Source: Methanosarcina thermophila TM-1
Lineage (GTDB): Archaea > Halobacteriota > Methanosarcinia > Methanosarcinales > Methanosarcinaceae
Assembly (NCBI RefSeq): GCF_000969885.1
Contig: NZ_CP009501.1
Coordinates: 310,001-374,000 of the forward strand
Length of the DNA: 64,000 nt
Direction of reading: 5' to 3'
A program made the translations under genes and the position numbers. The number at the start of each line of letters is the position of its first letter. Position 1 is the stretch's first letter. Of this stretch, positions 10,281 to 14,017 are shown one piece after another. The notes under the pieces are model-generated. The model worked only from the letters and a program-made list of their open reading frames with translations. It had not been told where the DNA came from and did not search any database.

Positions 10281-10721
10281 TTACCGCTCCAAAGTTTCCT
10301 TTATATTCGTTAAGCTACTCTTTATGCTTGTCAGGTTCTCTTTTATATCGGTTAAATTCTCTTTTATATCCGTAAAGTTCTCGTTTAGAGCCGTTAAATT
10401 CTCTTTTTCACGTGTTACGTTTTCTCTCATACCTTCAAGTGCAATTGTCAAATTTTCTTTTTTACTTATCAGGTCTTCTTTTGAGTCTGTTAAGTTCTCT
10501 TCTATGCCTGTTAAATTTCCTTTTTCATCTTTTAAGGTTTCTTTTATTTCTTGAACCTGATTTGTCAGGTTGTCTTTTTTCTCATTTAAGTTTTCTTTTA
10601 TGACCTCTAAGTTTCCATTTTCGTTTCCAGGCATATTTAGAAAACTGCCGGAAGATAACAGTATTAGTGAAATAAGTACCAGTACAATGAACAGAAAGCT
10701 AAAGAGTTTTATTTTTCCGAT
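10281..10721 (-). CDS. Membrane-anchored coiled-coil protein with serial N-X-T sequons
   Basis: From 10634 down to the stop at 10281 the frame encodes 117 residues of almost pure heptad repeat with the recurring theme ENLTxxK. Nine N-L/V/F-T sequons occur, spaced mostly by seven or fourteen residues. The frame upstream of the ATG at 10634 is also coding: it gives KIKLF followed by a strongly hydrophobic helix (FLFIVLVLISLILLSSG). No ATG, GTG or TTG starts that part. AGGTGA followed after four bases by ATC at 10721 is the likely start region. The protein would be a signal-anchored, extracellular coiled coil, and in an S-layer archaeon each sequon is a potential N-glycosylation site. Confidence 0.6.
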   Translation of the reverse strand: MGKIKLFSFLFIVLVLISLILLSSGSFLNMPGNENGNLEVIKENLNEKKDNLTNQVQEIKETLKDEKGNLTGIEENLTDSKEDLISKKENLTIALEGMRENVTREKENLTALNENFTDIKENLTDIKENLTSIKSSLTNIKETLER

Positions 10722-11092
10722 TGTCTCACCTTCCGTTAATGATATTGGGTATGAGAAGCTGCATCAGAGAATTATATATTCCGTGTTCATATAATTTTCT
10801 TTAATCTGCTGTGATTTCTTTGTAACAATTCCCGAAGCTCCTATCGAATATCTTTTACAGTTGTAGATTCCTCTTTGAGCGCCAGGAAGCCTGAAAAATA
10901 AAAATGAGTGATATATCTCAAAAACTTTCTCCAGATCAAAACCTCAATTTTTTTATTTGGGCGGGAAAGATTTTAAACTTAGAAATTAAGGAAAACTACA
11001 ACTTATATCCACAATTCTATAATTTTAAAAGCATTATAAGTAAATTTAAAATTACCAATCGAATGACTAGGAGTTTTTCCGGAGGGGGTAAC

Positions 11093-13080: not shown

Positions 13081-13088
13081 GTACTTAG
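13081..13088. repeat. Target-site duplication, left copy (GTACTTAG)
   Basis: The eight bases GTACTTAG immediately flank the left end of the insertion sequence and recur at 14097-14104 at its right end. The identity of the copies indicates a fairly recent insertion. Confidence 0.95.
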
Positions 13089-14017
13089 GGCTCTGTAGAA
13101 ATCCTTAATTTAATCCATAATAATTGTATTACTTTTTTGTTTATATTATAGACTATTAGTTTAACTTTTACTTCTTTTACTTGATTTCTAACCTTTCTTG
13201 CTCTTAATGTTTCTCCAAATTTTCTTTTTACAACAGATATTATTGTCTCTACTATATTCCTTCTATTGTATTTGATCTTATCAAAGTCTTTGTTTAATTG
13301 TTTTCTATATTTTCCGTTTATTCTCTTTCTTTTTCTTTCTCTCAAAGGTACTATTGAATCTGCTTTTATCTCTTCTCTTATTAGAGTATGAATTTCTTCG
13401 GAATCATATCCTTTATCCATCACATAACATTGAGACTTTCTTGACTTGTTTGATTGTCTTATCAGAGTCTTTGCATGCTTGACATCATGATCTGTTTTTT
13501 GGCTAATTTTCCATCCTAATATTACTTTTTTAATAGTGTCTACTGATATTGAAGTTTTAAGGAAGCTCCTTCGGAGCTTCCCTGTTCTCTTAGAATAATA
13601 ATGACTTGCATAAGAACTCGTAAATCCTGTTGCATCAATTGCCGTAATGAGAACTTTTTCTCCATGTGAGTAAAATAGTTTTAGAGTTTTTGACAAAATT
13701 AGGTTAAACAATGAAGAGGGAATTCTGGACACAAACTTTTGAAGAGTAGTGTAATGAGGAACCTTATCAAGGTCAAGTTTTTCCTTTATACTGTTCATGA
13801 GGTCAACAAGTTCTACAAAGTCACGGTAGTCTGTACTTATATACTCCTTCAATAAAACAAGAACAAGAAGCTGATGTTGAGTATAAACACGTTTGGAATA
13901 TTTGCAGGAGTAAAGGTTCAGTCTGGAAGACTGAACCGTTTTAAGACTGAGATCAATAAATTTAATATACTTATTTGATGACAATAGCAATTGCTCCTTT
14001 GTTTTTTGTGTGGACAA
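13085..14017 (-). CDS. IS5-family (ISH1-group-like) DDE transposase
   Basis: A 310-residue DDE transposase. The three acidic catalytic positions can be placed: ITAIDATGF near residue 127, [12 protein letters not shown] near residue 198, and the glutamate in [15 protein letters not shown] near residue 260. The reading frame is intact. The frame runs through the terminal inverted repeat, which encodes the last residues ISTEP, and its stop TAA (13085-13087) is supplied by the duplicated target sequence, not by the element itself. Length, terminal repeat and 8-bp duplication fit the ISH1 group of IS5, an assignment made from memory of the group's features. Confidence 0.9.

Follow-up and report, generated by a model that had tools for sequence, protein, structure and literature searches.

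A putative headless helical stalk with sequons along one face and a likely AUC start in Methanosarcina thermophila, and its relation to FAS1 lipoproteins

Braun-type Lpp is a small, headless, lipid-anchored helical rod that is bacterial, linked to peptidoglycan and not glycosylated. In archaea, the SlaB stalk of the Sulfolobus S-layer is a membrane-anchored helix of 132 residues along which six N-glycosylation sites are predicted (PMC10903991), and the tetrabrachion stalk of Staphylothermus is a surface coiled-coil glycoprotein stalk with 11-residue repeats (PMC5744192). Some surface proteins of M. mazei have been reported to be glycosylated (PMC4350412). Here we describe a gene in a 64,000-nt stretch of the M. 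thermophila TM-1 genome (the whole of which we call the window) that, in a reading we consider rather probable, encodes a headless, N-terminally anchored, extracytoplasmic single-helix rod. This rod would derive from the signal and sequon-bearing linker of a FAS1 lipoprotein, lengthened by 7- and 11-residue repeats; it would be glycosylated on one face by AglB (STT3) and translated from an AUC codon. In the literature listings and passages that we consulted, we recognized no account of this protein or of AUU or AUC starts in Methanosarcina.

Gene, anchor and predicted rod

The coding region occupies positions 10281..10721 on the minus strand of the window and, translated from a predicted AUC start (10721-10719), comprises 146 codons followed by TAA, with the frame conserved from codon 1. 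A Shine-Dalgarno sequence, GGAAGGTGA, was read at 10726..10734 (minus strand), ending 4 nt before the AUC, and relatives carry GGTGA or GGGGGA at this position; a TATA-box-like TATATAA (10772..10778, minus strand), lying some 50 nt ahead of the start codon, is a putative promoter element. Domain searches and region comparison identified the neighbors as a convergent SpoIIAA-like gene (PF11964; 9838..10200, plus strand), which marks the syntenic slot discussed below, and a divergent gene for a DUF5996 protein (PF19459; 10904..12106, plus strand). A DDE transposase (PF01609), also near the stalk gene at 13085-14017, gave no tblastn match in any of the five regions under comparison. Two antisense open reading frames on the plus strand (92 and 63 aa) were considered and rejected in favor of the minus frame on the basis of changes by codon position (24, 13 and 36 at positions one, two and three between the window's own genome, G000, and G006) together with dN/dS, a ratio that is not decisive alone since antisense frame rc1 gives a similar value (0.29).

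AlphaFold2, run as a monomer on two sequences (the window protein and its G006 relative), predicted for the window protein a helix at residues 2-25, a low-confidence break at residues 26-33 and one unbroken helix at residues 34-145 (112 residues), with a ten-residue mean pLDDT of 93-98 from residue 41 on, reaching 97-98 along most of the stalk. At 1.5 Å per residue, the 112 residues of the stalk (10287..10622, minus strand) would form a rod of ~17 nm. The first helix coincides with a signal or membrane-anchor segment (residues 1-26, IGKIKLFSFLFIVLVLISLILLSSGS; 10644..10721, minus strand) that aligns with the lipoprotein signals of relatives. Alignment also revealed a lipobox remnant, LSSGS (10644..10658, minus strand), in which Cys is replaced by Ser: the Cys after the signal peptide is absent in the window protein, G000 and G020 both having SSGS, and the lipobox is intact (SSGC or ASGC) in G006, G014 and G024. 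The sequence-only reading had proposed a coiled-coil rod held outside the cell by an N-terminal hydrophobic anchor. That anchor is present, and the signal and lipobox SGC of the relatives support a location outside the cell; of the coiled coil, the predicted structure bears out a rod-like single helix. The best fixed heptad register of the window stalk has 62% hydrophobic residues at a/d (hydrophobic stripe R 0.65), and the stripe is regular in both G000 and G006. Searches of the window protein against Pfam and NCBIfam returned, among the best 25 matches shown, only matches below cut-off, which we read as coiled-coil noise.

Sequon register in the window protein and other stalks

The open reading frame contains the nine N-X-T sequons that had been counted earlier (seven NLT, one NVT and one NFT), at residues 51, 69, 76, 90, 101, 108, 115, 122 and 129 (starting at window positions 10571, 10517, 10496, 10454, 10421, 10400, 10379, 10358 and 10337). 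Residue shuffles of the 120-residue mature part contained 2.5 sequons on average, and nine were reached by only 5 of 100,000 shuffles. The spacings (18, 7, 14, 11, 7, 7, 7 and 7) agree with the mostly seven-residue register described before and consist solely of 7, 11 and sums of these, thereby placing all nine sequons on one helix face; 7 and 11 residues are two common repeat lengths of long helices. The proposal that Asn recurs on the same face was likewise confirmed (R = 0.97), with none of 2,000 random placements as coherent, in a null that ignores that tandem repeats multiply a period. This value for the full set of nine indicates that the spacings other than 7 also hold the same face; the best helical period of the stalk was 3.545 residues per turn. 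The suggested likeness to an archaeal mucin fits poorly, given 5 Ser, 12 Thr and 1 Pro per 120 residues and a predicted helix.

The 117-aa ORF as listed, used as a query, found matches in 4 of 59 genomes (its own included), all in its own genus, and a 160-aa query taken from G006 found matches in 18 of 30 genus genomes, most of them to other sequon-rich proteins. A scan of genome contigs yielded a single relative, Methanosarcina sp. MSH10X1, whose contig is that of G006. Stalk-only ORFs were recognized in at least six of the 30 genus genomes (G000, G020, G006, G014, G024 and, as a short one, G005), a count that covers matches for which a locus was read and leaves some weak matches aside. Identity to the window protein was about 90% (89-90%) in G020, 75% in G006 and 42% in G014, with signal and stalk common to all.

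Homologues that keep the heptads and lose N-X-T were largely not seen, although the window copy itself has lost three of 12 alignable sequons as well as its lipobox Cys (nine sites are kept in G000 and ten in G020). Across G000, G020 and G006, the N and T/S columns of the sequons were invariant in 19 of 24 cases, only slightly more often than the remaining mature columns (55 of 84), and the X columns in 10 of 12; among the other mature columns, 13 of 18 hydrophobic and 42 of 66 polar ones were invariant. Conservation of sequon spacing, which the earlier reading had proposed to look for, was found as a one-face register in all seven family stalks (four orthologues, two stalks in G024 and the linker of the G014 FAS1 protein), whose repeats differ, but the sequon sites themselves are barely better conserved than the rest. 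All seven are sequon-enriched, and R ranged from 0.93 to 0.97 in these and in four of four other stalks; the enrichment is partly built in, since the eleven stalks were picked for being sequon-rich, a choice that does not extend to the spacing. Of two control linkers, one had three sequons, which was also above expectation (P = 0.006), and the other had one. The G014 stalk usually has Ser as the third sequon residue and has K at alternate d positions, indicating that the sequon register outlives the hydrophobic heptad. Spacings in the 98-aa G024 stalk are 11, 7 and 4, and the G014 FAS1 linker repeats VENETGI. Relative to G006, dN/dS was 0.25 for G000 and 0.32 for G020, and it was low over residues 1-26 as well (0.28 and 0.16, respectively); the value between G000 and G020 (0.48) is uninformative, as it rests on 26 changes only and does not differ from that of other frames.

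Enriched, one-face sequons also occur in stalks that seem unrelated to these: in small ATG-started lipoproteins with AENVTEDVEM repeats (L122, L128) from g5, a different genus of the family, in a Methanosarcina protein with YNNVTTA repeats behind a membrane helix (L036) and in a heptad rod of GNASERL repeats (L134, in G105) whose PGF-CTERM anchor scored over both curated cut-offs. We also observed that four g5 lipoproteins (L122, L124, L128 and L137), small and ATG-started, are largely built from copies of one 11-residue sequon repeat (AENVTEDVEM), with nothing further. Further Methanosarcina surface proteins (L016, L030, L031, L033, L025-L027, L035-L036) have seven-residue sequon repeats (PEENVTV, PEDNVTI, GPETNVT, MENMTGR, YNNVTTA), some with Pro and so non-helical.

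FAS1 lipoproteins, the syntenic slot and the start codon

In each of the four further genomes compared (G020, G006, G014 and G024), the slot is again marked by the SpoIIAA-like gene. The slot holds a stalk only in G000, G020 and G006, a FAS1 lipoprotein followed by a stalk in G014, and a 65-aa stalk followed by a FAS1 lipoprotein in G024, whose 98-aa stalk lies elsewhere. The G014 slot neighbor matched PF02469 with E = 1.3e-37, and FAS1 matches were found in 24 of the 30 genus genomes; the sole match in G000 is at C1:717310-717675, and the window protein itself gave 67 weak domain hits, the best 25 of which did not include PF02469. Seven FAS1 proteins (L015, L018, L019, L020, L021, L024 and L039) begin with the signal seen in the window protein and its relatives and continue with a lipobox SGC, a linker like APENETKKVENESENLTKEAE and the fasciclin domain. 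The window protein has that signal, linker and locus; like these lipoproteins, it combines signal, lipobox region, N-X-T/S linker, non-AUG start context and slot, and unlike them it has no FAS1 head and a linker lengthened to ~110 residues. On the common signal, lipobox and slot, the gene is best read as a paralogue of a FAS1 lipoprotein that consists of a headless stalk whose repeats have expanded. The account of the rod made from the window alone had contained neither this origin nor the non-AUG start, both of which came from comparison with relatives; the FAS1-lipoprotein stalk origin and the conserved non-AUG start context are the more solid of the new points. A FAS1 lipoprotein gene of the same subfamily at G026:C1:2803904-2804487 has a TGA inside the domain and is apparently broken.

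No ATG, GTG or TTG occurs in the stretch that separates the preceding stop from the AUC at 10721. The earliest such in-frame codon is ATG 10634, from which the 117-aa ORF is listed; it lies behind the anchor, so that a protein started there would lack it. The earlier placement of the gene's end at 10721 keeps the frame and implies an AUC start, whereas the listed ORF begins at the ATG; judged by relatives, the AUC is most likely the start. Among 31 distinct family genes, all from Methanosarcina (25 FAS1 lipoproteins and six stalks), the aligned start codon was ATT, ATC or ATA in 30 and ATG in one (L024), the first two bases being partly built in because the script sought only I or M there. L019 has an ATG one codon before the aligned position, and a gene represented by L063 and L091, alike in sequence, was dropped from an earlier, similar script for a regex reason only and has ATT. 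Thirteen of the 30 genes, including all six stalks, have no in-frame upstream ATG, GTG or TTG; the others have an upstream TTG or ATG, mostly 5-8 codons up and before or overlapping the Shine-Dalgarno sequence, which stays an alternative start for the non-stalk-type genes having one. In the sister genus g21, ATT was found in four of four genes printed (L150, L156 and two in L157), and g3, g5 and g6 have ATG at this place, or GTG in L148 and L149, with the surrounding context shared, as seen for ggggggcgactt-ATG of L151.

The pattern GGGGGA-N6-ATH-ARR-AAR occurred at 34 places in 19 of the 30 genus genomes (backwards control, 6), and its ATG version at 12 places (control, 1); the 30 ATH loci that were read include 14 at which a FAS1-type lipoprotein begins and many more at which nothing opens. 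Scanning the 64-kb window for Shine-Dalgarno sequences followed by ATH ORFs gave two hits compared with two for reversed decoys, showing no excess, and the stalk gene was the sole hit with a signal-like start. A programmed frameshift from an out-of-frame ATG or GTG overlapping the Shine-Dalgarno sequence fails generally as an explanation, such a codon being absent in many members (GGGGGAGAG or GGGGGAAAA contexts); in the window gene, the frame of the out-of-frame GTG stops after six codons. Three other ORFs (L096, L099 and L077 at position 1513) open with ATA or ATC behind GGGGGA and have no upstream in-frame start; two are long, secreted-looking paralogues and one has a cis-prenyltransferase-like motif.

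In the available part of a Ribo-seq study of M. mazei, unannotated small ORFs are reported with ATG, TTG, GTG and CTG only (PMC11456600). We would give about even chances to the wider interpretation that a conserved AUU, AUC or AUA start replaces AUG lineage-wide, in a fixed Shine-Dalgarno context, in surface lipoproteins of Methanosarcina and its sister genus, possibly as a translational brake, and that its product here is a glycan-faced helical rod of a type that is seen several times among Methanosarcinaceae, on anchors of different kinds (lipobox, membrane helix, PGF-CTERM). Were this so, an archaeal surface gene set would have retained AUU/AUC initiation from the common ancestor of two genera onwards, annotation limited to ATG, GTG, TTG and CTG would miss genes started in this way, and the N-termini, hence the signal peptides, of AUU/AUC-started genes would be wrong or absent in standard annotation.

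Alternative explanations and comparison with known stalks

In the mechanism that we propose, the protein would be exported by its N-terminal signal, and AglB (STT3; one of three enzymes) would glycosylate many Asn residues during export, before the helix forms; PF02516 (STT3 family) gave three matches over cut-off in G000. Because sequons make poor acceptors once their helix has formed, the sugars would have to be transferred before folding. The product would be a rod with one sugar-coated face beside a hydrophobic stripe and, with the latter lying ~80 degrees off the sequon stripe in G000, G020 and G006, the sugars would flank rather than block coiled-coil contact. Such a rod may serve as a spacer or a shield for the zone that separates the membrane from the S-layer. 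Copies of the ancestral type would have been lipid-anchored, and the window copy, with Ser in place of Cys, would stay attached through an uncleaved membrane helix. Comparison of the aligned genes establishes the signal/lipobox origin, the slot in common with FAS1 lipoproteins, the one-face sequon register and purifying selection; N-glycosylation of the predicted sites on one face is probable, and the putative glycosylated rod is plausible.

An exported, anchored coiled-coil rod could instead have gained its N-X-T triplets incidentally, through amplification of a 21-bp unit such as the one encoding ENLTDIK, and act as a plain spacer or oligomeric coil free of sugars. A 21-bp unit did expand recently in G006, giving three copies of GIEENLT, and the near-average conservation of the sequon columns in three orthologues and the regular hydrophobic stripe of G000 and G006 fit this explanation as well. 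We nevertheless consider it unlikely, since the repeats ENLTDIK, ENITEKRENLSNLS, KKAENESENLT, VENETGI, AENVTEDVEM, GNASERL and YNNVTTA have only N-X-T/S and helical spacing in common, and since the T/S swaps of G014 preserve the sequon.

Loss of function is a further candidate: the window lineage may hold a decaying remnant of a FAS1 lipoprotein, as its missing FAS1 head, lipobox Cys and three sequons, the dN/dS of 0.48 with G020 on few changes and the internal TGA of the G026 FAS1 copy might suggest. This is quite improbable given a frame open in three species, a dN/dS of ~0.25 relative to G006, about 90% identity to G020 and a stalk that, far from being eroded, exceeds the FAS1-protein linkers in length. 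A start at ATG 10634, the first in-frame ATG, GTG or TTG, would yield a cytosolic coiled coil of 117 aa in which the sequons are meaningless; we regard this as very improbable, because the aligned codon in G006 is GTA and the mature part of that protein has no Met, and because the upstream sequence has been conserved in the form of a lipobox-bearing signal peptide (dN/dS 0.16-0.28 over residues 1-26 relative to G006).

If the glycosylated rod is real, it offers a small natural test of whether an archaeal oligosaccharyltransferase decorates one helix face at helical spacing, and a test object for the role of headless glycosylated stalks under the S-layer. Lpp resembles it as a headless helical rod and differs in being bacterial, peptidoglycan-linked and unglycosylated. 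The tetrabrachion stalk is likewise an archaeal surface stalk, with 11-residue repeats to be compared with the 11-residue sequon repeats of some stalks described here, and differs as a 70-nm tetramer with large arms, to which we claim no homology (PMC5744192). SlaB is similar in being a long membrane-anchored helix with predicted N-glycosylation sites along it, whereas it is C-terminally anchored and trimeric and has three beta-sandwich domains facing the SlaA canopy (PMC10903991); AlphaFold2 predicted for the window protein an N-terminal anchor and helix only, with neither a C-terminal transmembrane helix nor beta-sandwich domains of the SlaB type. By likeness in features, and with no homology claimed, SlaB may serve as the nearest working analogue of the stalk described here.
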